DNA from: an uncultured Pseudomonadota bacterium
GTDB taxonomy: Bacteria; Pseudomonadota; Gammaproteobacteria; Steroidobacterales; Steroidobacteraceae
Length of the DNA stretch: 64,000 nt
Direction of reading: 5' to 3'
Assembly: GCA_903832085.1 (NCBI GenBank)
Contig: CAIKZZ010000008.1
Coordinates: 40,258-104,257, forward strand
The position numbers and the translations under genes are program-made. Positions 20,544-38,810 of the stretch are shown here, one piece after another. The notes under the pieces are model-generated. The model worked only from the letters and a program-made list of their open reading frames with translations. It was not told the DNA's origin and made no database searches. The first letter of the stretch is position 1; each line of letters begins with the position of its first letter.

Positions 20544-23500
20544 TCAGAACTGCGCAGTCAGCGTCGCAAATACGTAGCGACCGAGTGCGTCATACACCTG
20601 TGGGAAGGTATTGCCGTTGCACTGCGAGCCTGGGCAATCCGAGTTACCAAAGACCGGTGGATCCTTGTCTAACAGGTTTTGGATGCCTAAGCGCAACGTC
20701 AGCTTGTCGGAGGCTTTAATAGCTGCCGTCAGATCGAGATAATCCCGAGCATCCAGCTGCGCGTCGGTATTGGAAATTGCACCGGTGGCAATCGTACCCT
20801 GCGCCGCCAAGTTGCTATTACCGCTCAACGCATCAACCTTGACCGCGTTGAAATGACGCCAGGCCAAGGACAGGTCCAAGCCCTTCCACGGTGTCTGCCA
20901 GGTTGTACGCAACGTGTGACGCCACTCAGGGTTCGGCGTGCCACAAATGTTGCCATAGTAACCAACGCAGTCATACCCTGTGGAAGAGTCTGCAGCGATC
21001 GGCGTGATCTTATAAGCCTGCATGTACGTGCCTAGCAAGGCCGTGTGAATCTTGCCATACGCCCCGAGCTGGAACGTATACGACAAATCAACATCGATAC
21101 CCTTTTCCTCCAACGTACCGACGTTGGCGAGCTTGTCGACCACGTAGCCGTTGTTGGACAACCATAACGAGCCGTTGATATCGCGATGCACGAGATCACA
21201 CAACACGCCGTTGTTGAGACACTCTTTAAGAATCGTATCAGCGCCAATACGCTGAATAACATCGTTGATCTTAATATCAAAATAATCGATCTGCGCACGG
21301 AAGTTTGGCAGCCATTGCGGCGTATAACCCACACCAAACGACGAGGTCAGCGCGGTTTCAGGCTTCAGTTGAGTGTTACCACCGATAAAGCCGTTGTACT
21401 GCACTGCCGGGTTCGCAATGATGTTGCCATACTGCGAGGCAGATACACCTGTGCGAGCGCACTGTGCCGCAGAGTAGCTTGGGCTTGGACCCGTGCAAGG
21501 ATCAGTCACGCCATCAAGACCCACTTGCTGTGCCGAATACAATTCGCCCACGTTCGGAGCGCGCACGGCGTGAGCAAAGCTCGCGCGTAAACGCACCTCA
21601 TCCACTGGCGACCACTCAAGACCAAACTTGAAGGTGTTGGTGTTAAAGCCTAACGAATAGCTGGAATAACGATAGCCAGTTTCAAAGGCGAGTGATTTTG
21701 CAAGCGACGCGTTGTCGATCAACGGCACACGTGCTTCCATGAACAACTCACGCGACGCAATTTCGCCCGACAGCGGCAGAATGGGTGTGCCACCGCAGTT
21801 GCCGCAGTCACCCGATTGGTATTCCAGATCAGGCGTGTAGGTCGATTTGACCTGACGCCACTCGGCACCAACGTTGACTCGTACACCGGACTTGGCTGTC
21901 GGCAGCTGCCAACCATACTTACCAAGGTCACCGGTGACGTTGCCACTGACAATAAACTGCTGCACTTCACCACGGATCAGCAATGGGATGCCGATGTAGT
22001 TGGTCGCCGCTGGCGTGACGCCGCCGTAATTCCAAATATTCCATGGCACGCAGGTCGGATCAGTTCCATTCTGTACGGAGCGGCACTCCGGGCCGTTAGG
22101 GCCTTGCACCACATCGAGCGCATTGTTCATACGCCGCAAGGACACGTCATTGTTGTAATTTTCAACCAGCTGCGTGTAGCCAAACTGCCCATAGGTATCA
22201 TACGACCATGTGTCGTTGATAATCCCTTTGCTGCCGATCACTAAGCGCAGCGACTGGTGTCCCAAGTCATCTTGGCGTGGGCCACCTTCCACGTTACGCC
22301 GACCGAGCAAGAACGCGACGGGCTTATTCGGATCCGCAACGCCACCGCACCACGCATCGAGCTCAGCTGCCGTAAACAAAGGGTTACCGCAAGTCGAGTT
22401 GGCGAGCCCTGCGCCGAAGAAGAACGCCGTGGGTGCAATCTGCGCGATCGAGCGATCGTTCATGTACTGCACTTCGCTGTAGACATCTGCATGCTCATTA
22501 AACTCGTAGTGCACGAAGGCACCGGCCGAGTAACGCTCATCCGGTCTCTGAAAGTAATTGAGCGGGCCGTAGTTGTAACGGTAAGAGTTATTCCAATTGG
22601 TCAGACCATTGGGTCCCACCGTCTTGCTGCCGCCGATAATTGTGCCGGTCGCAGGATCGACCGGAATAAAACGGCCAGTGGCTGCGGATGACGAACCACC
22701 GCAAGAGAACTTACCGCCCGAATCATATGACCCCGCCACGTAACCTGAATTTAAGGTACACGCGCTGTAGTCGTATGAGGCTTGCAATACGGGGGCCACT
22801 TTACGGTAGGTGGCGTACATCGTCGCATTACCCTTGCCATCACCGGAGTTAAATCCAAATAAGAACGACAGATCCTTGGTTTGGCCTGTGTTCACATTGC
22901 CAGGAGCCGTCGCAAAGTTTGCGCCCGTGTCTGAGTTGAACTGCGGCACGGCATCGCCTGCACCTTGTGGGTTGTGCTGGCTGTGGTTGTAAAAGCCGTA
23001 ATTTGTGCTGATTTTTACGCCTTCAAAATGCGTATTCAGCACAAAGTTGACAACACCCGAGACCGCGTCCGCGCCATACACCGAGGATGCGCCACCCGTT
23101 AGAAGATCAATGCGCTCAATCAACTCCGCAGGGACTTGGTTCAGATCGGATGCGCTACCACCACCCGGATCACCAGGACCTAAACGGCGTCCGTTCACCA
23201 GCACCAACGTGCGCTGTGCACCGAGTCCGCGCAGATCGACTTCTGCTGTGCCATTCGATCCGTTAGAAATGTTTGAGCCTTGTGACGCGAATACCTGGGG
23301 CAAAGAGTTGAGCAAGTCCTCAATGCGCGTCACGCCAGTTTGTTCGATATCGGCCGCACCCACCGCCACCACAGGACTGATGGAGGTCTCGTTCGGTAGC
23401 GCGAGACGCGAACCCGTGACCACGACGTCATCGAGTACGGTGTTTTGCGCGTTCGCTGGTGCGGTTTGCGCATGAGCGGCTCCGAACGACGCGAGCACGC

Positions 23501-23561
23501 TGCCAGCAAGCGCGAGGCGCACGCTCGTTGCCAGCACTTGATTGCCAATACGACTTGTCAT
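20544..23561 (-). CDS. TonB-dependent receptor 1
   Basis: 1005 residues. Signal peptide ending GAAHAQ, then the TonB-box-like DDVVVTGSRL, plug domain (IEQTGVTRIEDLLNSLPQV, VDLRGLGAQRTLVLVNGRRL, GGASSVYGADAVSGVVNFVLN) and a 22-strand barrel ending in FATLTAQF. Extracellular loops hold many Cys pairs (for example DCGNCGG, TCVPWNIW, DCPGSQC). It imports a bound ligand using TonB energy. The ligand cannot be named; adjacent sulfotransferase and hydroxylase genes suggest a modified peptide or other unusual substrate. It is paralogous to the receptor at 33283-36339. Confidence 0.95.
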   Translation of the reverse strand: MTSRIGNQVLATSVRLALAGSVLASFGAAHAQTAPANAQNTVLDDVVVTGSRLALPNETSISPVVAVGAADIEQTGVTRIEDLLNSLPQVFASQGSNISNGSNGTAEVDLRGLGAQRTLVLVNGRRLGPGDPGGGSASDLNQVPAELIERIDLLTGGASSVYGADAVSGVVNFVLNTHFEGVKISTNYGFYNHSQHNPQGAGDAVPQFNSDTGANFATAPGNVNTGQTKDLSFLFGFNSGDGKGNATMYATYRKVAPVLQASYDYSACTLNSGYVAGSYDSGGKFSCGGSSSAATGRFIPVDPATGTIIGGSKTVGPNGLTNWNNSYRYNYGPLNYFQRPDERYSAGAFVHYEFNEHADVYSEVQYMNDRSIAQIAPTAFFFGAGLANSTCGNPLFTAAELDAWCGGVADPNKPVAFLLGRRNVEGGPRQDDLGHQSLRLVIGSKGIINDTWSYDTYGQFGYTQLVENYNNDVSLRRMNNALDVVQGPNGPECRSVQNGTDPTCVPWNIWNYGGVTPAATNYIGIPLLIRGEVQQFIVSGNVTGDLGKYGWQLPTAKSGVRVNVGAEWRQVKSTYTPDLEYQSGDCGNCGGTPILPLSGEIASRELFMEARVPLIDNASLAKSLAFETGYRYSSYSLGFNTNTFKFGLEWSPVDEVRLRASFAHAVRAPNVGELYSAQQVGLDGVTDPCTGPSPSYSAAQCARTGVSASQYGNIIANPAVQYNGFIGGNTQLKPETALTSSFGVGYTPQWLPNFRAQIDYFDIKINDVIQRIGADTILKECLNNGVLCDLVHRDINGSLWLSNNGYVVDKLANVGTLEEKGIDVDLSYTFQLGAYGKIHTALLGTYMQAYKITPIAADSSTGYDCVGYYGNICGTPNPEWRHTLRTTWQTPWKGLDLSLAWRHFNAVKVDALSGNSNLAAQGTIATGAISNTDAQLDARDYLDLTAAIKASDKLTLRLGIQNLLDKDPPVFGNSDCPGSQCNGNTFPQVYDALGRYVFATLTAQF

Positions 23562-23603
23562 TGATGATCCCCTACAACCTATGGTGATGATCGGCCAAAC
23601 ACG

Positions 23604-23632
23604 GCACCGGCGTCATGTCATGCCGCCGGTGC
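23604..23632 (-). promoter_or_regulatory. Leader hairpin upstream of TonB-dependent receptor 1
   Basis: Perfect 9-bp inverted repeat GCACCGGCG / CGCCGGTGC with an 11-base loop, 43 bases before the receptor start and so inside its probable mRNA leader. The remaining 318-base spacer (23562-23879) shows no gene; it is AT-rich near 23780-23820, where promoters for both divergent genes are expected. Confidence 0.45.
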
Positions 23633-23879
23633 ACAGTGTACGCCCAACGAGTTCCCCCTCGTCTCAGAAGCATAACAAGAATATGGTATCGCCTCACCAT
23701 CCAAACGATTATGACCACCTAACCCCGATCACTAACCACCCCCCCCAGATGCCTAGGCTTAAGATCAATGAGTAGCTTTATTTAACATACTGATTTATAA
23801 GGTTTTTATATATTCCGTTTTTGCGCCATCGCTACTTAGCCTAAGTTGAGACTAGACGCGAGCATCGCAGCCTTGCACC

Positions 23880-25490
23880 ATGGTGCTCTTAAAATCGCCC
23901 AGTTCGGCCCCCATGCCCACGCCCAGCCTCCACGATTACCAGCAAGCCATCGTTGCCCATATGAACCGTCAGGACTGGGCATCCGCGGCGACCACGACCG
24001 CCAGCTGTCGGAAGGCATGGCCAGACGATCGCACGGGCTGGCTGCTAGGCAGCTTTGTGGCGCTGCTTGCGGATAAAAAAGACGCGGCTCTCGCCCTCAT
24101 GGACGAGCGACTGAGACTCGACCCCTCCGATCTACAATGCTTAATACAGCAAGCCGAGTGTTTGCTTGCGCTTGGCCGGGCGGATGAGGCACTCGCGGCC
24201 GCCGAGCGCGCGGCAGTCAGTGCGCAGGGCATTCCCGATGCGCTCGATGCGATTGCCGCATTTTTGGTGCACGCCAACGCACCGAGTCGAGCCCGCGAGT
24301 TATATGACAGCGCACTCGTGCTGACACCTAACCGCACAGATCTGCTCGGCAAACGCGCGATGGTGTCGCGTTTCTTAGGCGATTTTAAAGCCGCTGAACG
24401 CGACTATGAAGCACTACTTGCCATCGAGCCCGCCAACGCCAGTGCCCTTAAAGAACGTGCTGAGCTCACGCGCCAGTCCCTCGATCACAATACCATTCCA
24501 GCAATGGAGCGCTCCCTAGCAAGCTCGGTACCTGACTCCAAAGATGCCGCTACCCTGCACTTTGCGCTCGCAAAATCCTTTGAAGACACCGGCAACTACA
24601 CCAGTAGTTGGGACCATTTAGGTCGCGGCAACGCAATCGAACGAGCCCTTATTCAGTATGACGTTCGTACCGACTGCGACCTTATGCAACAACTCACAGC
24701 AACGTTCCCAGCGTCGCAAAAAAAACCACTACTGTCCGCAAACACAGGACCCATCTTCATCGTCGGTCTGCCGCGCAGTGGTACCACGCTGGTCGAGCGC
24801 ATCCTTGGCAGTCACTCACGCATTTATCCAGCGGGTGAACTGCCTGCGTTGTCCGAAGCGCTCACGGCTGCGATGGTCAAAACCTCAGGCCTTGAACGCT
24901 TTACACGGGAGCAGTACATCAGCGCGCTGCGTGTGCTCCCCCCGGAACTGATCCGCGACGAATACTTAAGTCGGGCGCAGGCGCGTCGCGGTGAAAAAGA
25001 TTTTTTTACAGACAAACAGCCCACAAACTTTTTTTACTGCCCAGTAATCGCGCAGGCATTTCCAGACGCTCGCATCATCCATCTGACTCGCCATCCACTG
25101 GCTACCTGCTATGCGATCTATAAGACGCGCTTCCAGGGCACCTATCCTTTTGCCTACGATTTACGCGAACTGGGCGACTTTTATATCGGTTACACCAAAT
25201 TGATGGCGCACTGGCATGCCGTTTTGCCTCATCGCATACACGATCTTTCCTATGAGAGGCTGGTCACCCACCCAGAAGAGACAATCCGAGCGCTCTTCGA
25301 ATATGTGGGGTTAAACCTAGAGGACGCATGTCTTAACTTTCATGCAAACCCCACAGCCACCACGACTGCCAGCGCGGTTCAAGTTCGTCAGCCGCTATAC
25401 GACTCGTCCGTTCATCAGTGGCAGAATTACGCGTCTGAATTGGCTGACCTCCGACGACAGCTCGAGCTTGCCGGCATTAAGATCCAATAG
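23880..25490 (+). CDS. TPR-containing sulfotransferase 1
   Basis: 536 residues (start uncertain; an ATG at 23913 is an alternative). Residues about 15-230 are tetratricopeptide repeats. From about 300 a sulfotransferase domain: FIVGLPRSGTTLVERILGSHS is the PAPS 5'-phosphosulfate loop, FTDKQPTNFFY follows, and RIIHLTRHPLATCYAIYKTRF the 3'-phosphate-binding region. The C-terminus has VRQPLYDSSVHQWQNY. This TPR-ST type transfers sulfate from PAPS, possibly onto a protein or peptide held by the repeats. No signal peptide, so cytoplasmic. It faces away from receptor 1 across a 318-base spacer. Confidence 0.92.
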   Translation: MVLLKSPSSAPMPTPSLHDYQQAIVAHMNRQDWASAATTTASCRKAWPDDRTGWLLGSFVALLADKKDAALALMDERLRLDPSDLQCLIQQAECLLALGRADEALAAAERAAVSAQGIPDALDAIAAFLVHANAPSRARELYDSALVLTPNRTDLLGKRAMVSRFLGDFKAAERDYEALLAIEPANASALKERAELTRQSLDHNTIPAMERSLASSVPDSKDAATLHFALAKSFEDTGNYTSSWDHLGRGNAIERALIQYDVRTDCDLMQQLTATFPASQKKPLLSANTGPIFIVGLPRSGTTLVERILGSHSRIYPAGELPALSEALTAAMVKTSGLERFTREQYISALRVLPPELIRDEYLSRAQARRGEKDFFTDKQPTNFFYCPVIAQAFPDARIIHLTRHPLATCYAIYKTRFQGTYPFAYDLRELGDFYIGYTKLMAHWHAVLPHRIHDLSYERLVTHPEETIRALFEYVGLNLEDACLNFHANPTATTTASAVQVRQPLYDSSVHQWQNYASELADLRRQLELAGIKIQ

Positions 25491-25511
25491 GCGTTCGCGC
25501 ACGCATACTGA

Positions 25512-26087
25512 CTAATGTACGCGAGTCACCTTGCAGTCACGCCCAGTTGCCGTCTTAATCCGAAATGACCCGAATGCGCCGCGCACCAGACGCACCGTAT
25601 CACCAAGTTTTAATAGCAAATCACCAGCCGGGGTCAGTTCACGCCATGCCTGGCCATTATCGAGGTTAAACACGACTCGCCCATCGTCTTGCAACGCAAG
25701 TCCCATCACGCGCGCCCTCAATTCTGGAATTTCAGTCGGCTGGCCTGGCTGAACATCGCGCGCCACAATAGTCGCGGGTGGTAGCCCAAATTTTTCAGTG
25801 GGCGTCAGTCGAGCTACTGGCGTGACGGGCGAGGCCGTGCCCTTTGCGGCAGACTCGGTTGGTGAGGTAGCGCTTGCTATATCAACAACGCGGCTAGTAA
25901 CACTCGTCTCGTCGTCGAGCACCGCGCTTTCTCGATCAAAGCAAGCAAGCCTCTCATTGGTATCGCGAATAGCCCGACACTGCAATAAAGCATGCACTCC
26001 AGTGTCGGCAAAAGCCGAACTCATTATCAGAGTCGCAACCATGCTTACAGCCGGCAGTGCCCCTTTCAAACCCCACTCGCTACGCAT
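25512..26087 (-). CDS. Small exported protein with N-terminal Cys pair (paralogue A)
   Basis: 191 residues with a GGGGGA ribosome site. Signal peptide to about SSAFADTG. A short cysteine segment, LLQCRAIRDTNERLACFD, then a variable linker, then a C-terminal domain with VVFNLDNGQAWRELTP, LKLGDTVRLVRGAFGSFRIK and a final RDCKVTRVH. The same order (Cys pair, linker, LDNGQ.W...GS) appears in the protein at 30964-31473, in the mirrored position after an AspH gene. Function unknown; a periplasmic partner of the neighbouring enzymes or receptors is possible. Last gene of the run ST2 - AspH1 - this gene. Confidence 0.8.
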   Translation of the reverse strand: MRSEWGLKGALPAVSMVATLIMSSAFADTGVHALLQCRAIRDTNERLACFDRESAVLDDETSVTSRVVDIASATSPTESAAKGTASPVTPVARLTPTEKFGLPPATIVARDVQPGQPTEIPELRARVMGLALQDDGRVVFNLDNGQAWRELTPAGDLLLKLGDTVRLVRGAFGSFRIKTATGRDCKVTRVH

Positions 26088-26108
26088 GACTCAATCCCCC
26101 GCTATTTC

Positions 26109-27431
26109 TTACAGTCCCATCGGCGGTAACCCTTCGCCTTCATAAAAATCAGCAATCGCGATCATCGCTTCTCGCACTAAATCACGCTCCATCAGCGTGA
26201 GTGCTGGATGCCATATATCAAAAATCAGTATGGCGCGAGGGATATCAGAATCATTCCATGCCTCATGCTCAATGGTGTCGTCAAAGGCCCACGCACGGCC
26301 CACTTGCCACTCGCGCGTTTCGCCACCGACTCGGAACCCGCATCCCGGCGGCACGATCAATGGCAAATGGACTGTCAAGCGCGTGTTGGTAACACCTGTA
26401 TGCGCCGGAATATGTGTCTTTGCATCGAGAATAGAAAAAAATGCCGTTGGCCCGCGACCAGGAATATCGACTTGGGGCGTTTTACTCAGCGCCACCATCG
26501 TCTGAGGGCAGCGCACGATACGCTCTTCCTGTCGCGCACCTTCGTTACTCAGAAAGTAGGCGCCCCAGCGCCTCGAGTGATTGAGTTCGCGCCACTGATT
26601 CAAGGGCACACCATCCGGATAGGCGATATACGGCTGCATACCACCCACGTCCTCGCGCAATAGCTGCGTCAATTCTTCGCGGATCGCCCCGGTTGCATAC
26701 TCTAATTCTTCCATCCATGGAAAATCGCGCCGCGGGTAGTACTCATGATTTGTCAGAAACGGAAAATGCATGAATGTTGGCTGCGGTGCGTAAATTTTCG
26801 TGCGCCCCAAAATCTGCGCAATTGAGCGCTCAAAACGCTGACGCCCATCGCGCGGATCACTGCGCCGTATAGGCCCAACGCGCGCCTCAATAGAACTCGC
26901 CAAACTCGATGCCGCCTCTGCCACGCGCGAACGCGCATGCTTGACGTGCGCCTCCAATGCCGGCGGTAGTCTTAGTTCAGGCGACAACGTATCCAACGCA
27001 TTTTTATACACCTGCGCTGCAGCACGTGACCTGCCCATCAGATCAAGCACGGCGCCTTTTTGCAGCAGCACGACTAAGTGCGCAGGATCAAGCGCCAAAG
27101 CGCGCTCTAAGGTGACCAGTTCCGCATCGCGACGACCCAGCGCACGCTCAGCTGCAGCCACACTCAGCCAAAACTGCACATAATTCGGCGCGCTCTCGGC
27201 GGCTGCCTGAAACAATGCGAGCGCTGACTCTGCATCTCCAGCGCTCAGCATACGTCGCGCACTTTCATGCAATACGAGCGGGTGATTCGGCAGCAACCTC
27301 TGCGCCTCATTAAAACATTGCTGCGCCTGTTCACTTTGCCCTTGCGCGAGCAGCTGATCTACCTGCGTCATCAAATTGACAACTGTGGTTTCTAAAGTCG
27401 CGCGTGTCGCATCAGCCAAAGTCTTACTCAT
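26109..27431 (-). CDS. TPR protein with aspartyl/asparaginyl beta-hydroxylase domain 1
   Basis: 440 residues. N-terminal TPRs (about 15-150), then an AspH domain in the C-terminal 230 residues: TAFFSILDAKTHIPAHTGVTNTRLTVHLPLIVP carries the first Fe-binding His (in TVHLPL), and WAFDDTIEHEAWN the second, as in mammalian AspH, which also uses only two His ligands. LIFDIWHPAL ends the core. These 2-oxoglutarate enzymes hydroxylate Asp/Asn side chains of proteins or peptides. No signal peptide. It lies 15 bases after ST2 and 21 bases before the small exported protein; its paralogue is at 29657-30964. Confidence 0.93.
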   Translation of the reverse strand: MSKTLADATRATLETTVVNLMTQVDQLLAQGQSEQAQQCFNEAQRLLPNHPLVLHESARRMLSAGDAESALALFQAAAESAPNYVQFWLSVAAAERALGRRDAELVTLERALALDPAHLVVLLQKGAVLDLMGRSRAAAQVYKNALDTLSPELRLPPALEAHVKHARSRVAEAASSLASSIEARVGPIRRSDPRDGRQRFERSIAQILGRTKIYAPQPTFMHFPFLTNHEYYPRRDFPWMEELEYATGAIREELTQLLREDVGGMQPYIAYPDGVPLNQWRELNHSRRWGAYFLSNEGARQEERIVRCPQTMVALSKTPQVDIPGRGPTAFFSILDAKTHIPAHTGVTNTRLTVHLPLIVPPGCGFRVGGETREWQVGRAWAFDDTIEHEAWNDSDIPRAILIFDIWHPALTLMERDLVREAMIAIADFYEGEGLPPMGL

Positions 27432-27446
27432 GGTGTCAGTATATCC

Positions 27447-29438
27447 TCAAGATCCATGCGGATAGCGCTCAACTAAGGGGCCGAGTGCGCGCCTTAGTGG
27501 CTCGAGCCAAGCCTCATACTCACGCCAGCGATCCACAGACTCTGAATAAATCGGCTGCCTCACCTGCTCTGAACTAATCGTGGTGACGACTCGGCGTGTG
27601 TTGTAGAACTGTAGGCATCCAGCTTCAAAGGGAAGCTGGCAATACGCAAGCAAGCGGCGCACTTCGCTCTCAGGATCAGCCACTAAGTGCTCGTAGTGGA
27701 CTCGATGAATACGGCCTGGCAAAACCTGATCATAGTGATCCATTAACGCCACATAATCGGCGTAAAAGCGCCCCATATCGGCTTGGTCGTAGCTAAAGCC
27801 CATGCCTTTTGCAAAAAGCTGCTTGTAACACGAAAACCCCCCACCCAATGGGTGGCGTCGAGCATCAATAATGGCCGCGTTAGGAAACATCAGGTGGATA
27901 ATCCCGACATGCCCAAAATTGAATAAGTTCTTATCCACAAAACGCGGCTTGCCTAAAGGCCGATGAATACTTGTGCGCTCAAGATACCGCGCGGCGCACG
28001 CCGCAAACACCGACGAATCAAGTGCGCTGAGCGACTCAGGGTATGCGCCTGTCGTTGGACTCACAATGATCTCGTAGCCAGCAGCGGCTAAATCCGGCAG
28101 CTCACGTGTCCCTTCAATTTGCGAATGGCTGCTTAGGATTTGTTCAAGTAAGGTGGATCCAGAGCGTGGCAAGCCCACAATAAAAATCGGATCAGCGCGA
28201 TCAATGCCCCAACCTTGGCGCTGATCGAAAAAATCTTGCGTAAAGAACTCTCTGTCGCGTGCGACATCGCTGCTCATGACATCCGGATCGTAGACAAGCG
28301 TTGAGCGCTGAGTACGATTGCCACGCTCATAATGGCTAAAGGACGTTGCATACTTGCCTTGGTCCTCAAATGCCTTGCCGAGCGCGAATTCAATATGAAC
28401 CGTATCGGCCTGACGCAACTGCGCGCTTGCCAATAGGTCGCCCATTTGCTTGATTTCAGCCTCGCCAAACCGAAACATTTTTAAGTTCGCAAGACTCCAA
28501 TACGCAGCGCCAGACTCGGGTCGCAACGTCAGCACTTTTCGATAGGCATCAATGGCCGCCTGCTGATCGCCTTGTGCACGCAGCGTATGCCCCATGAGTA
28601 GCCAGAGCATTTCACTCGTCGGATGATCGATAAGCGCACAACGTGTGACCTCAATCGCCGCTTCATTGGAACCGAAGACCCGTAACGTTTGGGCTTTCAG
28701 ATGGATGTAAGTGGTATTCGTTGGATCTGCTGCGAGCAAGCGCTCGAGCTCTACTAACGCCGCCTCATGCTGGTGAATGGTGTGCAGCAATTGAGCCAGC
28801 TCAAACCGCGCACGCGCGTCTCCAGGCGCTTCCTTGAGGCACTCGCGCAGTTGCCGTTCGGCTGCTGGATAATTGCCCTGCCGCGACGAGATATCGGCCA
28901 GATACCGCAGCGCGACCGTGTCTGTAGGCACCAACTTTAAGCGCGCCTCAAATAGCGCCTGTGCCGTCGCGAGCCGATTCTCGGCAAGGGCTACACTCGC
29001 ATCCCCGAGTTCCACGGGGTCTGCAATCAACGCCATATAACTCGCGTAGGCGCGATCGCCCATCACTGTCTGGCCATCCGCAAAGTAAAGCGCCGCGAGT
29101 GCACGCCACGCATCGGCAAGACCCGCATCTAATTGCACTGCCTGCACCAGAGCCGCACGGGCCTCAGCAACGTGCCCCACTGCCAGTAATGCACGACCCA
29201 TCTCCAGCGCCAAAAACGCGGATGCGGGCAGCATCGGCGATAAAGCCTTGAGTATTCCTAGGGCTTTACCAGGGTCATTGAGCTTCGTGCAGGCCGTCGC
29301 CAAGAGCAACTGGGCCTCGGTGTGTCCCGGATGCTCTGCAAGCACCAGACCAGCCAGCTCGGCCGCGCGCGCAGGATCCGTCTCCAGCGCCACGATGGCA
29401 CGCATCATCTGTATATCCGCCGAGGGACTCATGGGCAC
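27447..29438 (-). CDS. TPR-containing sulfotransferase 2
   Basis: 663 residues from the GTG at 29438, which has GAGGAG nine bases upstream; an ATG two codons later and a TTG seven codons earlier are alternatives. About ten TPRs fill residues 10-390, the longest repeat region of the three homologues. The sulfotransferase domain has FIVGLPRSGSTLLEQILSSHSQI (PAPS loop), RFVDKNLFNFGHVG, AAIIDARRHPLGGGFSCYKQLF, and QVRQPIYSESVDRWREYEAWL at the end. It is the first gene of the minus-strand module and is divergent from AspH2 across about 220 bases. Confidence 0.92.
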   Translation of the reverse strand: MPMSPSADIQMMRAIVALETDPARAAELAGLVLAEHPGHTEAQLLLATACTKLNDPGKALGILKALSPMLPASAFLALEMGRALLAVGHVAEARAALVQAVQLDAGLADAWRALAALYFADGQTVMGDRAYASYMALIADPVELGDASVALAENRLATAQALFEARLKLVPTDTVALRYLADISSRQGNYPAAERQLRECLKEAPGDARARFELAQLLHTIHQHEAALVELERLLAADPTNTTYIHLKAQTLRVFGSNEAAIEVTRCALIDHPTSEMLWLLMGHTLRAQGDQQAAIDAYRKVLTLRPESGAAYWSLANLKMFRFGEAEIKQMGDLLASAQLRQADTVHIEFALGKAFEDQGKYATSFSHYERGNRTQRSTLVYDPDVMSSDVARDREFFTQDFFDQRQGWGIDRADPIFIVGLPRSGSTLLEQILSSHSQIEGTRELPDLAAAGYEIIVSPTTGAYPESLSALDSSVFAACAARYLERTSIHRPLGKPRFVDKNLFNFGHVGIIHLMFPNAAIIDARRHPLGGGFSCYKQLFAKGMGFSYDQADMGRFYADYVALMDHYDQVLPGRIHRVHYEHLVADPESEVRRLLAYCQLPFEAGCLQFYNTRRVVTTISSEQVRQPIYSESVDRWREYEAWLEPLRRALGPLVERYPHGS

Positions 29439-29656
29439 GGTACGGATCTCCTCGACCAAGGTAGCAAGCCATTAAAGACTGTCTGCCAGCGGCACGCAAA
29501 CGCCACAGCTTACCCCCCCCCACGGAGCGCCGATGCCCGCAAAAGCTATGTAGCCGAACGCGACCACCTGAGTCAACGGCCTAAGCGCTGCGCCGCGGTG
29601 CAGCGGCGCGCACGAACAGCTACAATCGACTGCAGTTCTCCTGCGAGGTCACTCAT

Positions 29657-30964
29657 TTGAGCAGCACAGCCCCTGGGGTATTGGACGAGGCGGGGATCCT
29701 GCGCGCCTTGCAGATATCAAAAGCGGACGCAGCCGCTGGCCGCGTCACTGAGTCTGATCAGCTGCTAGCACGTATTGCTGAAGCCGCCCCCCATCACCCC
29801 GCGGTGCTCAACGAGCTTGGCGTGCGCATGCTGGCTCGCGGCTCAGCAGAACAAGCGCAGGCACTGTTTACACGCGCCACCAGCGCGGATCCGCGCCATC
29901 CCGCCCTCTGGGCCAATCTCGCGAGTAGCCTCAAAGCACTCGGCCGGCGCGACGAGGAGCGCGATGCCATTGACAAGGCGCTCGAACTCGAACCGCGCCA
30001 CCTGTCCGCTCTTTTGCAAAAAGGGGCTTACCTGGAAGAGACGGGCGATGTGCGCAGCGCGGCCCGCACCTACCAAAACGCCTTGGAATGCATTGCACCC
30101 AATGCACCCGTACCCGCTGCGATTGCAGATACCCTACAACATGCCAAGCAAGTGGTGGAATCTGATTACAACGATTTGACCCGAGCGCTGGAAGAGCCTT
30201 TGGTTGCGATCCGCGCAGCGCACGGACAACGTCGCGAGCCCCGCGTCGATCAGTGCTTGGACATTCTGATGGGCCGTCGCAAGATCTATCACTCGAATCC
30301 CACGTGGATGTACTTCCCTGGATTACCAGCGATCGAGTTTTTTGAGCGAGCAGACTTTCCGTGGCTGGACGCCTTTGAAGCGGCCACCGACGACATCCGC
30401 AGTGAGTTAATGCGGATCCTCGTGGCCGATCGAGAGGGCCTACAGCCCTATGTCGACTATCCCGTCACGATGCCGCTAGACCAGTGGCGCGAGCTCAATC
30501 GTTCACGACGTTGGAGCGCCTACTTTCTATGGAACCAAAGTCGACCGGAAGCCGCTCACATCGCGCGCTGCCCAATCACGGCCCGTATTCTCGAGACCGC
30601 TCCGCGCTGCCGAGTCGAGTCCCGCGCGCCGACTGCTTTCTTCTCCATATTGGACACCAATACCCGCATACCGGCCCATGTCGGCATCACCAACACACGC
30701 GCAACAGTCCACGTACCGCTCATTATTCCGCCCGATTGCGGCTTTCGTGTTGGCAACACGACCCGCGAATGGGTACCAGGGCAGGCTTGGGTGTTTGATG
30801 ACACCATCGAGCACGAAGCATGGAATTTATCGGATACACCGCGCGCCATTCTGATCTTTGATATCTGGAACCCGCTGCTAACTGCCGTCGAGCGCAGCAT
30901 GATTCAGACCGCCACAGAAGTTTACGTCGAGCACTACGCACTACCTCCAGACCAGATCCGGTGA
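29657..30964 (+). CDS. TPR protein with aspartyl/asparaginyl beta-hydroxylase domain 2
   Basis: 435 residues. The TTG start is supported by GAGGT eight bases upstream. Layout matches the paralogue at 26109-27431: TPRs (LGVRMLARGSAEQAQALFTRATSADPRHPALWANLASSL and the next repeats), then AspH domain with IPAHVGITNTRATVHVPLIIP and WVFDDTIEHEAWN, both Fe-binding His kept, and ILIFDIWNPLL. It hydroxylates Asp/Asn in an unknown protein or peptide, probably held by the TPRs. The stop overlaps the next gene (TGATG). Confidence 0.92.
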   Translation: MSSTAPGVLDEAGILRALQISKADAAAGRVTESDQLLARIAEAAPHHPAVLNELGVRMLARGSAEQAQALFTRATSADPRHPALWANLASSLKALGRRDEERDAIDKALELEPRHLSALLQKGAYLEETGDVRSAARTYQNALECIAPNAPVPAAIADTLQHAKQVVESDYNDLTRALEEPLVAIRAAHGQRREPRVDQCLDILMGRRKIYHSNPTWMYFPGLPAIEFFERADFPWLDAFEAATDDIRSELMRILVADREGLQPYVDYPVTMPLDQWRELNRSRRWSAYFLWNQSRPEAAHIARCPITARILETAPRCRVESRAPTAFFSILDTNTRIPAHVGITNTRATVHVPLIIPPDCGFRVGNTTREWVPGQAWVFDDTIEHEAWNLSDTPRAILIFDIWNPLLTAVERSMIQTATEVYVEHYALPPDQIR

Positions 30965-31473
30965 TGCCCATGCAGCTACCTAAGATGCTTCTCATCAGCC
31001 TGCTGTGCAGCGCAGCGTGCTTGGCTGCCGACATAGACCCCAGTGCGTTGCAGCGCTGTGCAGCCATTGCCAGTGATGCCACGCGACTGCAGTGTTACGA
31101 CACCTTGGCCGGCCGACCGATGACAGCACCTCAGGATCTTGCGTCTACCAATCACACCCTGCCCACTGGCACAGCAGCATCGACGACGGCGCCAGCCGCC
31201 ACAGAGCCTGCGAGCAGCTTTGGGCTCAGCGCAACGCAGCTCAATGTCGCCAAGCCAACGACTGATGCGGTACAAGGGCGAGTCGTTAACTTAGCAGAGA
31301 GTGCAACCCAGCAACTTATGGTCACATTAGATAATGGACAAGTGTGGCAACTTACCGGCGAAGATGCGCATGTGAATGTCGGCGAGCAGGTCACGATACG
31401 ACGCGCCGCGCTGGGCTCATTTTTGCTCATCACCAAACTTAAATTTGTGTACCGCGCGCACCGTATCAAGTGA
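30964..31473 (+). CDS. Small exported protein with N-terminal Cys pair (paralogue B)
   Basis: 169 residues from the ATG at 30964, which overlaps the AspH2 stop as TGATG. Signal peptide MPMQLPKMLLISLLCSAACLAAD. Then ALQRCAAIASDATRLQCYD, a Thr/Ala linker, and a C-terminal domain MVTLDNGQVWQLTG...VNVGEQVTIRRAALGSFLLI. It matches the protein at 25512-26087 in order and in the Cys, LDNGQxW and GSF positions. The gene is translationally coupled to an AspH, so the two products very probably belong to one process. Confidence 0.8.
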   Translation: MPMQLPKMLLISLLCSAACLAADIDPSALQRCAAIASDATRLQCYDTLAGRPMTAPQDLASTNHTLPTGTAASTTAPAATEPASSFGLSATQLNVAKPTTDAVQGRVVNLAESATQQLMVTLDNGQVWQLTGEDAHVNVGEQVTIRRAALGSFLLITKLKFVYRAHRIK

Positions 31474-31546
31474 TTATCTTGGTGGCGGAACATCGCGGCC
31501 ACATCATTAGCATGACTCGCCTTAATGCGCGCATACAGGCCTGACA

Positions 31547-33178
31547 ATGACCAGAAACACGGACGCAGATACCGCAACGTTGCGCGCGGTCCTTGAGGCC
31601 GCTCAAGCGCGAGATTTTACGCGTGCAGGCATGCTTGCCAATCAAGCACTCGCCACGGGTCTTGAGCATCCACTATTACTGAACGTCGCAGCCACTGTAC
31701 TCGAACATGCTGGCAAATTTAACGACGCAATCGTACTGCTAGAGCGCGCCGTTGCCATCGCCCCCGCTGATATCGGTGCCCGCAACGCCCTCGCCTTGGT
31801 TTTGCAACGGGTAGACAGGCCCGCAGATGCGCTGATCCATCTCGATGAAATCTTAAAGCTCGACCCAAACCTTAGTTTTGTCCACGTCAGCAAGGGCAAC
31901 GCGCTCATGAGTTTGGGCTCACTCGGCCGCGCCAAACTATGCCACATGCATGCACTGACGCTAGAGCCAGAAAATGTGATTGCTCAGGCAGCATTGGCCT
32001 CCATTGCGAGTCACTTCGGTTTACACGAGGAGGCAGCAGACTGGGCGCACCGCGCACTCGCCAAAGTACCGAATCTGCCGGATGCGACCATTGTGCTTGC
32101 TACTGCGGAACTGGCCGCCGGTCGCGCCACGAATGCAGAGAAACTTGCACGGCGCCTACAACTAGATCCGCGCTTAAGCACTGCCGATCAAGCGCGCGCT
32201 TTTGGCATCATTGCCGATGCCTGCGACGCCAGCGGCCGTTACACAGACGCCTTTAACGCCTACACCTTATGTAACGCCGCACTGCAGGCGGTGCATCGCA
32301 CGCTCGCCAGTGGGACGAGCGTACTCGACTATGCGCGTGGCATTAACGTCGCCTTGCGCCATGCTAACCCACGCTGCTGGCAGCCACAGAGTCAGCACGT
32401 ATCACCCAGCGCTGACGAGCCCACCGACCATGTCTTTTTACTGGGCTTCCCTCGTTCAGGGACCACACTGCTAGAAGTGGTACTCGATGGCCACCAGGAT
32501 GTTGTCAGCCTTGAAGAGCATGAACTTCTCATCGACTCGGTCGTCCATTTTTTTAATGAGCCGCTGCGGTTTCAGGATCTAGAGCAAGCAGATGAAGCCA
32601 CACTGGCTCCACTACGAACGGCGTATTGGGACCATGTCAAAGCTGCTGACGTGCGGTTTGCAGGCAAGGTCTTTATCGATAAACATCCGTTAAATACTTT
32701 AAAACTGCCACTCATCGCCCGCCTATTCCCGCGCGCCAAGATTTTGTTTGCGTATCGTGATCCGCGCGATGTGGTACTCAGCTGCTACCGACGACGGTTT
32801 AAGATGAACAAAGCGATGTACGAACTGCTCACCTTGCCCGGGGCTGCGGCTTTGTATGACACGGTAATGGAATGCGCTGAGCGTATGCGACCACTCGGTG
32901 GCCTGGCATGGCACGATGTGCGTTATGAGGATCTGCTGCTGGATCTACCCGGCGCAACACAAGCGATCTGTGGGTTTTTGAACCTACAATGGCAGCCACA
33001 GATGGTGGACTTCGGCCTGCGCGCGACGGCGCGGGAGCATGCAACCCCAAGCACCGCGCAGTTGAGTGGTGGTCTAAAGCACAGCAGCCAAGGGCACTGG
33101 CGACACTATGCGTCTGCACTGCAGCCCATAGAACGCACACTCGCGCATTGGGTGCAGCGGCTCGGCTACCCACCTTAG
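31547..33178 (+). CDS. TPR-containing sulfotransferase 3
   Basis: 543 residues. TPRs in residues 10-230, then sulfotransferase: VFLLGFPRSGTTLLEVVLDGHQ (PAPS loop), FIDKHPLNTLKLPLIARLFPRAKILFAYRDPRDVVLSCYRRRF (3'-phosphate site with RDPRDV), and a C-terminal HSSQGHWRHYASALQPI. It differs more from ST1 and ST2 than those do from each other and may accept another target. Third gene of the plus-strand module AspH2 - small exported protein - ST3, with a 73-base gap. Confidence 0.92.
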   Translation: MTRNTDADTATLRAVLEAAQARDFTRAGMLANQALATGLEHPLLLNVAATVLEHAGKFNDAIVLLERAVAIAPADIGARNALALVLQRVDRPADALIHLDEILKLDPNLSFVHVSKGNALMSLGSLGRAKLCHMHALTLEPENVIAQAALASIASHFGLHEEAADWAHRALAKVPNLPDATIVLATAELAAGRATNAEKLARRLQLDPRLSTADQARAFGIIADACDASGRYTDAFNAYTLCNAALQAVHRTLASGTSVLDYARGINVALRHANPRCWQPQSQHVSPSADEPTDHVFLLGFPRSGTTLLEVVLDGHQDVVSLEEHELLIDSVVHFFNEPLRFQDLEQADEATLAPLRTAYWDHVKAADVRFAGKVFIDKHPLNTLKLPLIARLFPRAKILFAYRDPRDVVLSCYRRRFKMNKAMYELLTLPGAAALYDTVMECAERMRPLGGLAWHDVRYEDLLLDLPGATQAICGFLNLQWQPQMVDFGLRATAREHATPSTAQLSGGLKHSSQGHWRHYASALQPIERTLAHWVQRLGYPP

Positions 33179-33226
33179 GCTGCGGGCGACACGGCACCAA
33201 GCAACAAACTTGTGTGGCCAAAAAAA

Positions 33227-33249
33227 ACGGCGGGCATTGAGCCCGCCGT
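33227..33249 (-). terminator. Rho-independent terminator of receptor 2
   Basis: 9-bp stem ACGGCGGGC / GCCCGCCGT with a 5-base loop. On the minus strand it is followed by seven T, so it chiefly ends the receptor 2 transcript; on plus it has few T. The GGCGGGC core is the same as in the receptor 1 terminator. Confidence 0.88.
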
Positions 33250-33282
33250 CATTCTGCCTAAGCGAAAGTGTGACTTCCGAAC

Positions 33283-36200
33283 TTAGAACTGTGCCGAGAT
33301 GTGCGCGTACATGTAACGACCCATTGTGTCGTACGTGCCCACCCAGGTGTTGTCATTACACGTCAAGTTTGGGCAGTTCGAATAGTTGCCGTTGTATGCC
33401 AACGGTGGCAACCGATCCGAAATGTTGTTCACACCCAAACGCAACGTCACGCCCGTGGCCACTGGCATCGATGCTGACAGATCGATGTAGTTCCACGCCT
33501 GATAATGAGCGCCCGGTGGGAAGTAGGGCTTCGCGAGCGCTGGGTTGCCGTCCGTCGAGTCCTGATCCACCGAACCGATATAACGCCACCGTGCGGTCAC
33601 ATCCAAGCCCTTCCATGGCGTCGCCCACGTGCTGGTAAACACATGACGCCACTTAGGCGTTGGCGAACCGCAGGTACTGCCGTAGAGGCCCGCGCAATCA
33701 AACGAACCACCGGTCGGCAAAGGCTGGGTGGTCAATGCCTGCACGTGGGTGCCGTTCAATGACAGACCCAACTTACCCATCGATCCCAACGACAGTGTGT
33801 AGTGCGAGGCCAGGTCGATACCCTTGGTCTGTACCGTACCAATGTTCTGCTCAGTAGCGGCAACATAGTCGTTGTTGTTGAACCAGAGCGAGCCGGTTTG
33901 TGGATCGCGATGGATCAAACTGCAAAGATCTTGTTGACCTGTGTTTGCGCAGTTGGCGATGATGGTATCTGACGACAGCGACGCGATCGTGTTCTTGATC
34001 TTGATGTCGTAGTAGTCGATCGTCACCACAAGCCCTGGAAGCGCTTTAGGCTGCATCACAACACCGAAGCTGAAGGTGTCAGCCACTTCAGGCGTCAGGT
34101 TCGGGTTACCACCAGACGATGTATTAATCTGCGCTGCGGTGTTCGGCAAAATCTTGCCATACTGACCCGCCGTGACGCCCGTGTTCAAACACTGCTGCAA
34201 AGTGTACTGCGGGGTTGAGCCCCAGCATGGATCAGCCACACCGCCTGAACCCACCACGGATGGGCTGTACAGGTCACCGATGCTGGGTGCGCGCACGGCG
34301 CGGTTGTAGCTACCGCGGAAGCGCACGTCCGAAATCGGCGCGTACTCAACTCCGAACTTATAAGTATTCGTGCTAAACCCTGAGGTGTAGGTCGAATAGC
34401 GATAGCCGCCATCGGCCGACAACACGTAGATGCCAGGCTTGTCATCAACCAAGGGGAGACGGAACTCACCAAATACTTCCGCGACATGGAAGCCACCGTG
34501 GATCGCACTGAAGGCGCCGTTGCCGCCCGATGCAAAGCCGTTCGCAAAGATGTAGTCCGGATCAAAATCGAAGTGTTCCTGACGGTACTCAGCACCCACG
34601 TTAACAATCACGCCGCTCGCAGCCGTCGGTACTTTCCAGCCGTACTTACCTAAGTCACCCGTGGCAGACGCCGACGCGATGTACTCAAGCGACTTGGTCG
34701 AGTAGGTCGACTGCACAGTCAGATACTTCAGCTGATCAGGGGTCACGCCGCCTGGGTTCCAAATATTCCATGGCACGCACGCGGTGTCTGAACCGTTGAG
34801 CGCTGAATTACACACTGGCGCACCTGCAGCGACGCCCGCGACACCACCGGTTGCTGGGTTCGGCACCACATCAAGCGCACGCAACACCTGCTGCGCCCCG
34901 AGAAAGCCGCCCTCCACGTCCTGGAAGGTCGTAATGCCGACCTGACCATGGATGTCGTAGGACCACGCATCGTTCAGTTTACCCTTCGCGCCCAAGACTT
35001 CACGGAACGAGTTTGAATAGTAATTATCCAAACGTGGACCGCTTTCCACACTGCGACGTGCGGCGAGCAGCGTGATGTCACCATTCGTACCGCCCCACTG
35101 AGCCTCGTTCGCTGCAATCGCACTTGGGCTGCAAATGGTCGAGGCAAAATCAGCCGGGATGAGTGGGTTTAAGTTCGAGCAATGCAAGTTCAGCTGACCG
35201 AACGCAAACAAGCCGCTGGGGCCGTACTGTGCGGTCGAGCTATTCCGCGCATACATGAACTCTGAGTACACGTTGGTGTGCTCGTTCACGTCATAATTGA
35301 AGAAGGCGCCGGCAGTGTAACGCTCAGAGGCGCGCTGCAGATAGCTGATGCCTCCGTAGTTATAGGAATCGCGCGAACCGTTGTAACCGCGGATGCCGCC
35401 CGCTGGATTGACCGTGGCGTCTGCAATGGCGGTGGAGGTGTGTCCGGCTGGGGTTAAGCCTAAGTCCAAGAAGCGTCCCGTGGCGCTGGAGCTTGAACCA
35501 CCGCAAGCCACTTGTTTGCCCGCTTTGATGGCGGTGATGCTGCCCGGCGTATTGAGCGTGCAACCGGCGTAATCGTATTGGTTGCCAACCGCAGGCTCGC
35601 TGTTCAAGTACCCAAAATACACCGTCGCGTTGCCTTTGCCGTCAGCAAAGTTCGATCCTGCAACGATGGAAACGTTCTTGTTCGCACCCGCGCGCACCGT
35701 GCCCTCTGGCGCTGGATTGTTACGCTGAGCCAACAAGTCCAACAAGAATTCGTTGTTGTTCTTGTGCTGATTGATGCCGTAATCGACGTCAACCTTAACG
35801 CCTTCAAAGTGGGTGTTCAGCACAAAGTTCACGACGCCCGCGACCGCGTCTGCGCCGTACACGGAGGAGGCACCACCGGTGAGTACGTCGACGCGCTCGA
35901 CCAGACCCGCAGGCAGCTGGTTGATATCAGCAACCGACGATGTGCCCAAGCCCGCGCCCGGGCTCATACGGAAGCCATCCACCAGCACCAAGGTGCGAGC
36001 GGAACCCAAACCACGCAAGCTCACCGTCGCGGTGCCGTTTGAGCTGATCGACTGCCCCGAGCTATTTTCCGCAACCACCTGCGGCAAGCTATTCAACAAA
36101 TCTTCGGCGCGCACAAGGCCCGTCTTTTGGATATCGATTGCCGTGAGGCTGGTCACGGGACTAATCGACACGTCATTCGGGGACTGCTGAATGCGCGATC

Positions 36201-36339
36201 CGGTCACAACCACGTCTTGCAACACAGGATCCGCTGGAGCGGTCTGCGCAAAGGCCGCATGGCTGCTAAGGGTTGTTGCCGTTGCAGCGAGGGCGAATCG
36301 AATTGCACGGCGGACCATTAGACTTGTTGAATTTTGCAT
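33283..36339 (-). CDS. TonB-dependent receptor 2
   Basis: 1018 residues from the ATG at 36339, chosen because it has GAGGGA upstream and starts a proper signal peptide (MQNSTSLMVRRAIRFALAA... ending HAAFAQ). Then DVVVTGSRIQQ as TonB-box region, plug with IQKTGLVRAEDLLNSLPQV, VSLRGLGSARTLVLVDGFRM and GGASSVYGADAVAGVVNFVLNTHFEGVK, and a barrel ending YAHISAQF. Shares the plug, ACVPWNIW and other loop cysteines with receptor 1, so the two are paralogues. Import ligand unknown. Confidence 0.95.
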   Translation of the reverse strand: MQNSTSLMVRRAIRFALAATATTLSSHAAFAQTAPADPVLQDVVVTGSRIQQSPNDVSISPVTSLTAIDIQKTGLVRAEDLLNSLPQVVAENSSGQSISSNGTATVSLRGLGSARTLVLVDGFRMSPGAGLGTSSVADINQLPAGLVERVDVLTGGASSVYGADAVAGVVNFVLNTHFEGVKVDVDYGINQHKNNNEFLLDLLAQRNNPAPEGTVRAGANKNVSIVAGSNFADGKGNATVYFGYLNSEPAVGNQYDYAGCTLNTPGSITAIKAGKQVACGGSSSSATGRFLDLGLTPAGHTSTAIADATVNPAGGIRGYNGSRDSYNYGGISYLQRASERYTAGAFFNYDVNEHTNVYSEFMYARNSSTAQYGPSGLFAFGQLNLHCSNLNPLIPADFASTICSPSAIAANEAQWGGTNGDITLLAARRSVESGPRLDNYYSNSFREVLGAKGKLNDAWSYDIHGQVGITTFQDVEGGFLGAQQVLRALDVVPNPATGGVAGVAAGAPVCNSALNGSDTACVPWNIWNPGGVTPDQLKYLTVQSTYSTKSLEYIASASATGDLGKYGWKVPTAASGVIVNVGAEYRQEHFDFDPDYIFANGFASGGNGAFSAIHGGFHVAEVFGEFRLPLVDDKPGIYVLSADGGYRYSTYTSGFSTNTYKFGVEYAPISDVRFRGSYNRAVRAPSIGDLYSPSVVGSGGVADPCWGSTPQYTLQQCLNTGVTAGQYGKILPNTAAQINTSSGGNPNLTPEVADTFSFGVVMQPKALPGLVVTIDYYDIKIKNTIASLSSDTIIANCANTGQQDLCSLIHRDPQTGSLWFNNNDYVAATEQNIGTVQTKGIDLASHYTLSLGSMGKLGLSLNGTHVQALTTQPLPTGGSFDCAGLYGSTCGSPTPKWRHVFTSTWATPWKGLDVTARWRYIGSVDQDSTDGNPALAKPYFPPGAHYQAWNYIDLSASMPVATGVTLRLGVNNISDRLPPLAYNGNYSNCPNLTCNDNTWVGTYDTMGRYMYAHISAQF

Positions 36340-36597
36340 AATTCCCTCAGAAAAAATCCATTCGGACTCTAAATTGCTCATCGTCAACCAGGTGCTGGCA
36401 GACCAAATATGGACGATCCAAACGCACATTCGCACGGTTGGACCCCATTAATGACAAGGACGTTACAGCAGGTCGTATCAATAAACAACTGTTTTAGGTC
36501 AGTTCCATCTAGGGATTTATGCCGCGAGAGACATTATTGTTGTTTTTATGCGACATTTAGCGTACGTAAAATGGCCGGCCTGCGTGGCCGTGCACTT

Positions 36598-37260
36598 TTA
36601 TGGTGCCGCCTCGGTAAACCAACAATTGGTAGCGACCGTGATCCGTGTATCCGCACCATAAAAAGGTGTGACCTCGTGGAAAAGATACGAGGGAAATACC
36701 ACCAACTGCCCAGCACGGAGGCGCATTTCCAGTGGCGCACAGGCATAGGTCCGCTCGAAGCCACGATTGGCCGGATCCACGTAGGCGCCGACCCCCTGCC
36801 GAGGATCAAACAGCCGCAATAGGCCGCTGTCAGGATGCTCCGGCACGACCGCGCCGGGCCGCACGCAATACACGGCAGACCATGACGCCAGCGGATGGTT
36901 GTGATTCACAAAACCACCAGCGTACCGCGACACGTGAAACCACGTGTGATTTTGCAGCGTCAGCCGCGCGAGATCCGCCAAGGTCTGTTGGGTGGTCTGA
37001 CACACGACCTGACCGATGGTATCTAGCATAAAGCGCCGCAGTTCCTGCACACAGGACTCTGGCCAACGAAACAAGTTAAACCGGCTTTCGAAAGTTTCAG
37101 CTTGCTGCGTATGACTCGGAGTGGGATTCCGAAACTCATCGTTTTCGCGCGCTAAAAAAAGCGCCTCTAAATCACGGTTCAGCGCCTCACATGACGCCAA
37201 GTGCGCCTCCCCAAACGGCACGGCGAACAACGAATTGATTTTGAGCCCTGCACCTACCAT
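36598..37260 (-). CDS. 2OG-Fe(II) oxygenase family protein A
   Basis: 220 residues from the ATG at 37260, which overlaps the stop of the upstream paralogue; the longer track start would run deep into that gene. TIGR02466-like oxygenase: TLQNHTWFHVSRYAGGFVNHNHPLASWSAVYCV holds the HxH metal site, and LRAGQLVVFPSYLFHEVTPFYGADTRITVATN has the distal His and the Arg that binds 2-oxoglutarate. Probably hydroxylates a small molecule or peptide. It sits between TonB receptor 2 and two paralogues. Confidence 0.88.
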   Translation of the reverse strand: MVGAGLKINSLFAVPFGEAHLASCEALNRDLEALFLARENDEFRNPTPSHTQQAETFESRFNLFRWPESCVQELRRFMLDTIGQVVCQTTQQTLADLARLTLQNHTWFHVSRYAGGFVNHNHPLASWSAVYCVRPGAVVPEHPDSGLLRLFDPRQGVGAYVDPANRGFERTYACAPLEMRLRAGQLVVFPSYLFHEVTPFYGADTRITVATNCWFTEAAP

Positions 37261-37907
37261 TGCGTCATCCCCGTCTGTCCGGGCGCCCTGTAGCGCACCC
37301 GCAAGGTCACCAATATCAAGTCCCCTGCTGCCCGGATCAAACCCACCTCGTGGGTCAAGCTCGCAGGAAATACCGCCATTTGGCCAGGCACTGGCTGCCA
37401 CGACGAATGTCCAGATGCATATTGAGGAACGAGCAGGCTATTGCTTGCGTCCTGAAACATGGTCGTGGGTCGCGGCTCAAACAAGCGCAGTGCCCCGCTA
37501 TCATGCCGCTCAGTCGAGGGTTCAGGGGCCGCAACACAGTAAACTGCACACCACGATGTCAGCGGGTAACTCGTCGCCGGCACACGCCCGTTGGGTCGCA
37601 CGATCGTGAACCAACCCAAGCCCTCAACCGACATAGAGTTCCAGCGCTCTTCAGAAAACTGATTCACGGATGACACAACCGAGTGCACCCCACGAAACAT
37701 CTGGGTCGCCAAACTGCGAACTTTGGGATCCGGCCACAACAAAAGATCCACCGCGCTTTGATAACGCAGCGGGTTTTGCCGCGCAGCATCAGCCGCGGCA
37801 TGCGCGTTAAAAAAACTGGCTAGCTCGCTATTTAAAGCCGCGGCCTCACCTAAACCCACCACGCCAAACGGCATGGCGAACAATGGCTGTACGAAATTAG
37901 TATCCAT
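37254..37907 (-). CDS. Degenerate 2OG-Fe(II) oxygenase paralogue B
   Basis: 217 residues, clearly homologous to its neighbours (SWCAVYCV, DSGALRLFEPR, PGQMAVFPASLTHEVG). The HNHP/HSHP metal site of the other two is ATSYP here (residues 111-115), and the 2OG-binding Arg of DTRITV is replaced by Leu (GDLILV). Only the distal His remains. The frame is intact and its stop overlaps the start of gene A by seven bases. It may be a non-catalytic partner or regulator of gene A, or an early stage of decay. Confidence 0.85.
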   Translation of the reverse strand: MDTNFVQPLFAMPFGVVGLGEAAALNSELASFFNAHAAADAARQNPLRYQSAVDLLLWPDPKVRSLATQMFRGVHSVVSSVNQFSEERWNSMSVEGLGWFTIVRPNGRVPATSYPLTSWCAVYCVAAPEPSTERHDSGALRLFEPRPTTMFQDASNSLLVPQYASGHSSWQPVPGQMAVFPASLTHEVGLIRAAGDLILVTLRVRYRAPGQTGMTQW

Positions 37908-38156: not shown

Positions 38157-38810
38157 ATGAAGGCTCCGGAAATTCGTATTGAAACACTGTTTGCCACACC
38201 TCTTGCGCTCATCGAGCATCCGTACTGTGAAGCGCTCAACAGTTCGCTCGAAGAATTGTTCTTGTCACGTGAGACGTCGGCCTACCAAAATCCCCGGCCA
38301 TCGCACCTACCGCAACCCGAGACCTTTGAGAGCCGCTTCGATCTATTTCACTGGCCGGAGCCGGCGGTCCGTCAGCTACGCGAGTTCATGTTAGGATCAG
38401 TGCTCGACGTTGTGCGCGAGCTCAACCACTACACCCCTGAGGAAGTCGCAGCCCTCACCCTCAAGAATGACACTTGGTTTCATGTGATGAGGCGCAATGG
38501 CTCCTTCGTCGCTCACAGCCATCCCATGGCCTCCTGGTCTGCGGTGTATTGCGTACGTGGCGGTGAGGAGGTCCCTCAGCGTAAGGACAGTGGACTACTG
38601 CGCTTTTTAGATACTCGCGGCACCACCAATTTTTTGGATGCGGGCAATGCGCGACTCGAACCTCCCTATAGTGCTGGACACTTTTCGGTACGCTTAAAAC
38701 CCGGGCAGCTCGTCATTTTTCCAGCACACCTCGTCCATGAAGTAGCGCCGTTTTTTGGATCAGACACCCGCATTACGGTTGCTAGTAACTGCTGGTTTGA
38801 TCGCCGCTAA
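38157..38810 (+). CDS. 2OG-Fe(II) oxygenase family protein C
   Basis: 217 residues, very close to gene A along its length: FESRFDLFHWPEPAVRQLREFM, TLKNDTWFHVMRRNGSFVAHSHPMASWSAVYCV with the HxH site, DSGLLRFLDTRG, and LVHEVAPFFGSDTRITVASN with distal His and Arg. All expected catalytic residues are present. Transcribed away from A and B across 249 bases (37908-38156) in which no gene could be supported. The MATE exporter follows 49 bases downstream and may share its transcript. Confidence 0.9.
   Translation: MKAPEIRIETLFATPLALIEHPYCEALNSSLEELFLSRETSAYQNPRPSHLPQPETFESRFDLFHWPEPAVRQLREFMLGSVLDVVRELNHYTPEEVAALTLKNDTWFHVMRRNGSFVAHSHPMASWSAVYCVRGGEEVPQRKDSGLLRFLDTRGTTNFLDAGNARLEPPYSAGHFSVRLKPGQLVIFPAHLVHEVAPFFGSDTRITVASNCWFDRR

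Follow-up and report, generated by a model that had tools for sequence, protein, structure and literature searches.

Non-catalytic partner subunits have been documented for some enzymes. In trypanosomatids, the dead paralogues of the DHSc/DHSp and AdoMetDC/prozyme pairs activate their active partners (PMC3663545; PMC5201418), and in OGFOD1 a catalytic double-stranded beta-helix (DSBH) domain is packed onto a second DSBH domain that has no metal site (PMC4396695). UTY, formerly reported as inactive (PMC4140284), is one reason for caution in calling the protein described below inactive. Among 2-oxoglutarate (2OG)-Fe(II) oxygenases of the PF13759 / TIGR02466 type, the crystal structures 2RG4 and 3BVC were both deposited as uncharacterized proteins, and in the open-access literature we found no paper reporting that a stand-alone bacterial 2OG oxygenase has a partner subunit without catalytic activity. 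The B-A gene pair presented here would extend the idea of such subunits to an enzyme of this kind.

The window, by which we mean the whole analysed stretch of 64,000 nucleotides, carries three paralogues of this family. Gene B (37254..37907, minus strand), a putative pseudo-2OG-oxygenase whose frame had been described as intact in a sequence-only reading of this DNA, is indeed an open reading frame of 217 amino acids with an ATG start and no frame break. Gene A (36598..37260, minus strand; 220 aa) has the complete HxH...H...R pattern, namely, HNHP, HEV and DTRITV. Gene C (38157..38810, plus strand), whose start lies about 250 nt upstream of B in the opposite direction, is divergent, also has the complete motif and falls outside the conserved B-A unit. 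The Pfam cut-off for PF13759, 27 bits, is passed by A (56.8 bits) and C (58.2 bits), and B falls slightly short of it (25.7 bits, E 1.5e-5). Single-chain AlphaFold2 models of B (pLDDT 77.6, pTM 0.81) and A (pLDDT 77.9, pTM 0.80) are of moderate to good confidence. In the model search both retrieved 2RG4 and 3BVC first and prolyl hydroxylases next; for B, these two PF13759-type crystal structures were the best matches, with TM 0.6-0.7 and E about 1e-9. Thus, B is a real folded relative, predicted by its model to have the DSBH fold of PF13759 2OG-Fe(II) oxygenases, and the structure-model search rules out a chance frame or a different fold. Searching solved structures with sequence profiles gave no match for B, and 3BVC for A (E 0.0022).

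An alignment of B, A and C made with MAFFT has no gaps across the motif. The stretch around the metal site reads VPATSYPLTSW in B versus FVNHNHPLASW in A and FVAHSHPMASW in C, and the stretch around the arginine reads AGDLILVT in B versus ADTRITVA and SDTRITVA. This is what had been claimed for B, that is, ATSYP in place of the HxH site and Leu in place of Arg. In the window, then, the first histidine (H1) of B is Thr, the second (H2) is Tyr and the 2OG-binding Arg is Leu; the segment replacing the metal motif, PATSYPLT, occupies 37557..37580 on the minus strand, and the distal His (HEV; His186-Glu187) and D136 are retained, a point absent from the sequence-only reading. We take HxH, the distal His and the Arg to be the metal and 2OG ligands, both from general knowledge of 2OG oxygenases and from the alignment of A to 3BVC (HIH ... 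HEV ... R). A functional Fe(II)/2OG oxygenase has HxH or HxD/E ... H as metal ligands, where B has T-x-Y...H, and an Arg or Lys binding the C5 carboxylate of 2OG, where window B has Leu. These losses strongly support the proposal that B is non-catalytic and would not turn over 2OG. A shifted alignment supplying other His and Arg residues, which would have undone that proposal, is ruled out, since B and A/C from 21 loci align alike and the B model matches 2RG4 and 3BVC.

Orthologues of B were gathered in three ways. First, a search of the whole genomes of 98 relatives yielded six close orthologues from within the genus, plus one from a different genus of that family. Second, a scan of named species genomes yielded 20 loci, most of them in MAGs carrying the labels Gammaproteobacteria, Proteobacteria or Steroidobacteraceae. 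Third, an order-wide profile search added further B genes in genera g7, g19 and g21. After merging of duplicates the set comprised 21 sequences, including window B, and nearly all other members come from draft MAGs. B is therefore intact, with no frame-breaking stop, in at least 21 genomes, which span four or more genera of a single family. The draft state of these assemblies might lend some credit to the notion that the losses arose through faulty assembly or sequencing in a single metagenome bin, but the same losses occur in 20 further assemblies; because the orthologues share them, this explanation is already refuted, and we regard it as virtually impossible.

Across this set, H1 is lost in 20 of the 21 sequences, the replacements being T, I, A, E, Q, S and R; H2 is not His in 17; the Arg is replaced by Leu or Met in 20; and the distal His is present in 20. 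Every one of the 21 lacks H1 or the Arg. Another 15 positions do not vary across the whole set, and R134, Asp136, Arg141, Arg146, H167, W170, His186-Glu187 and R205 are conserved. The variety of replacements at H1, together with the 15 invariant residues, fits a site that catalysis no longer constrains, within a protein whose remainder is still required. These data also bear on whether B might be catalytic after all, using a rearranged site or a different cofactor. AspH is active with two His ligands only, and some 2OG oxygenases need just two protein metal ligands (PMC6817910), so residue loss by itself is no proof that B is inactive; the conservation of His186-Glu187, Asp136, Arg141 and Arg146, and the presence of all three His in one orthologue (L059), point the same way. 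However, no new invariant His, Asp or Glu appears in place of H1 or H2 in the 21 sequences, and Leu or Met stands at the Arg position in all but one of them, which makes an active B very improbable.

In a tree computed from the columns outside the motif, all B genes form one clade (SH-aLRT 99), nested among HNHP-type members in a containing group with SH-aLRT 99, in agreement with common descent of B and PF13759 members. The first branch within the clade is the copy from L010 and L065, in which the Arg is retained; for L065 it is in place in the gap-free alignment, and a gap shifts it in another alignment. This earliest-branching copy (L065:8001-8639, in genome G034), with the Arg but no first His, represents an intermediate stage of the loss. 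L059 (L059:8001-8645), with HSH, the distal His and Leu at the Arg position, is nested in the clade, its metal site having been kept or regained. Because L059 has the metal ligands and no Arg, and L065 the Arg and no H1, partial activity or ligand binding is possible in some B proteins. The simplest history is one duplication followed by loss of H1, then loss of the Arg, and retention since; loss of the catalytic residues, retention and coupling of B can all be placed on one tree. At a further locus (L052:7101-7977), a fragment corresponding to the first 46 residues of B lies next to an incomplete sulfotransferase frame, upstream of a full B; its appearance suggests either partial duplication in tandem or faulty assembly.

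Counting losses across the family, as the sequence-only reading had suggested, sets B apart. Complete members of the order other than B have HxH...H...R in 83 of 84 cases, and none of 43 class-level members lacks the motif (scored by pattern, with flagged ones judged by eye). Loss of H1 and of the Arg, each in 20 of 21 B proteins, versus 1/84 in the order and 0/43 in the class, is more than expected by chance. The sole exception among the 84, which has lost metal residues, is in genome G081 (L027:1435-3025), where an inactive PF13759 copy (HxQ, with the distal His changed to Gln and the Arg kept) lies directly upstream of an active one. The stop of this copy overlaps the next start, and the pair is independent of the B clade; further copies of the inactive paralogue were sought in five genomes and found in G081 only.

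A further check put forward with the proposal, to look for purifying selection in close relatives, comes out in its favour in Nei-Gojobori estimates. Since dS is close to saturation in most pairs, the estimates are confined to the least diverged ones, in which dN/dS is about 0.16-0.34 for B versus 0.08-0.21 for A in the same pairs. Mean pairwise identity is 49% for B versus 67% for A; B evolves faster than A, yet is clearly constrained. The faster rate of B, together with the overlap between its stop and the start of A, could be expected if B were a paralogue in decay, its reading frame maintained only for coupled translation of A. But coupling requires an open frame and not a conserved sequence, and dN/dS well below 1, the residues invariant in all 21 sequences and the retention of B in several genera run counter to decay, which we consider improbable. 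Intact frames and these dN/dS values rule out B as a pseudogene.

The overlap itself, which had also been pointed out, is confirmed in the window. The stop codon of B (TAG, 37256-37254) overlaps the in-frame ATG of A (37260-37258), the two genes sharing the 7 nt ATGGTAG (37254..37260, minus strand), a putative site of translational coupling. An in-frame A start overlaps the B stop in all 21 loci, situated 4-7 nt ahead of where B ends, and no B without an adjoining A was found among them. The complete A genes adjoining B all have HxH, the distal His and the Arg, and A-like genes without B are common. Gene overlaps of 4-7 nt are ordinary in compact operons. The fact that the overlap is kept in all 21 loci nevertheless indicates that B and A stayed one unit, and we infer that they are translated jointly. 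The monophyly of B, its residue losses, its dN/dS and its constant, overlapping position beside A favour a partner model, in which B is a non-catalytic subunit of A, and thereby support the pseudo-enzyme partner proposed in the sequence-only reading; the inactive-then-active overlapping pair of G081 is counted in favour of this model, as are the OGFOD1 and trypanosomatid precedents.

The surroundings of the pair are conserved as well. Comparison of neighbourhoods and Pfam matches identified, directly downstream of A, a TonB-dependent receptor with Plug and beta-barrel domains (33283..36435, minus strand); 16 of 21 loci have such a receptor following A in the same orientation. Other conserved neighbours are the TPR-sulfotransferases ST1 (PF13469; 31547..33178, plus strand) and ST3 (27447..29459, minus strand), a TPR-Asp/Asn beta-hydroxylase (PF05118; 29657..30964, plus strand), and a small protein with a signal-like N-terminus, a C..I...RL.CYD motif and no Pfam match (30961..31473, plus strand); genes of these kinds also lie near other B-A loci. 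The genome has two Asp/Asn hydroxylase genes in total, both in the B-A cluster. Small proteins with signal-like N-termini, no Pfam match and the motif C..I...RL.C[FY]D occur at both 30961-31473 and 25512-26087, are conserved beside the Asp/Asn hydroxylase, and are possibly substrates or accessory proteins.

In 15 of 21 loci B lies directly downstream of a TPR-sulfotransferase, the stop of which is within about 26 nt of the B start. This proximity invites a different interpretation, namely, that B forms no stable complex with A and that its empty active-site groove serves as a peptide-binding adaptor or chaperone for a substrate of the cluster, such as a receptor precursor, which B would pass to A, the sulfotransferases or the hydroxylase. 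TPR domains commonly bind peptides, and both their presence in the surrounding enzymes and the conservation of R134, H167, W170 and R205 in B are compatible with such a role. Against it, the tightest link of B, and a universal one, is to A, through the overlap, and no sulfotransferase lies directly upstream of B in the window, where C occupies that place. We therefore judge an adaptor acting apart from A to be unlikely, and return to B as a subunit of A as the probable reading.

Under this preferred reading, B, which has kept the DSBH fold and lost the residues holding Fe(II) and 2-oxoglutarate, would be made together with A from the overlapping frames, and the two would form a B-A heteromer, with A as the hydroxylating subunit and B stabilising A, holding the substrate, or both. 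The conserved surroundings suggest that the substrate belongs to the outer-membrane receptor system; in what is the weakest step of the model, it may be a protein or peptide of that system that is hydroxylated, and perhaps sulfated, before export. Among HNHP-type relatives without B, a TonB receptor lies within about 10 kb in 10 of 15 further loci, often with sulfotransferase and hydroxylase genes, where chance would give roughly one in six at the receptor density of the window genome alone. This genome counts 28 Plug matches over 2.65 Mb; with receptors so numerous, proximity by itself is weak evidence on the substrate.

A cassette with a TonB-dependent receptor, TPR-sulfotransferases, a TPR-Asp/Asn beta-hydroxylase, a small exported protein and an HNHP-type PF13759 oxygenase recurs across families of the class (window 20544-36435; L033-L038; L185-L195). 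A literature search for publications on the receptor/sulfotransferase/hydroxylase cassette found nothing relevant, and it appears undescribed in the literature searched. It is tempting to speculate, albeit with considerable doubt, that a two-gene bacterial 2OG hydroxylase with an obligatory pseudo-oxygenase partner forms, together with the TPR-sulfotransferases and the TPR-Asp/Asn hydroxylase, a dedicated and so far undescribed system of post-translational modification for a TonB-dependent receptor or for a peptide that the receptor handles. The B-A pair marks this recurrent cassette, and gives access to what may be an unknown modification acting on outer-membrane receptor systems.

With respect to known systems, A and B have the fold and overall alignment of PF13759 / TIGR02466 proteins (2RG4, 3BVC) in common, and A also their HxH...H...R pattern, whereas B lacks H1, H2 and the Arg and scores just under the Pfam threshold. 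Human AspH resembles the cluster in its combination of TPR and PF05118, present here in a neighbouring gene, but most B proteins differ from it in keeping a single metal His and no 2OG Arg. In OGFOD1/Tpa1, as in B-A, a catalytic DSBH unit is tied to a metal-free one, physically in the former and through a predicted complex in the latter. There, however, both units are in one polypeptide with the catalytic domain first, whereas B and A are separate overlapping genes with the inactive one first; we take OGFOD1 as a structural precedent and claim no close sequence relation. Finally, prozyme-type pairs are unrelated eukaryotic enzymes whose complex and activation are experimental, while both are predicted for B-A; what the two have in common is a dead paralogue retained beside an active one, and at the sequence level B is such a paralogue, under purifying selection and kept together with A.
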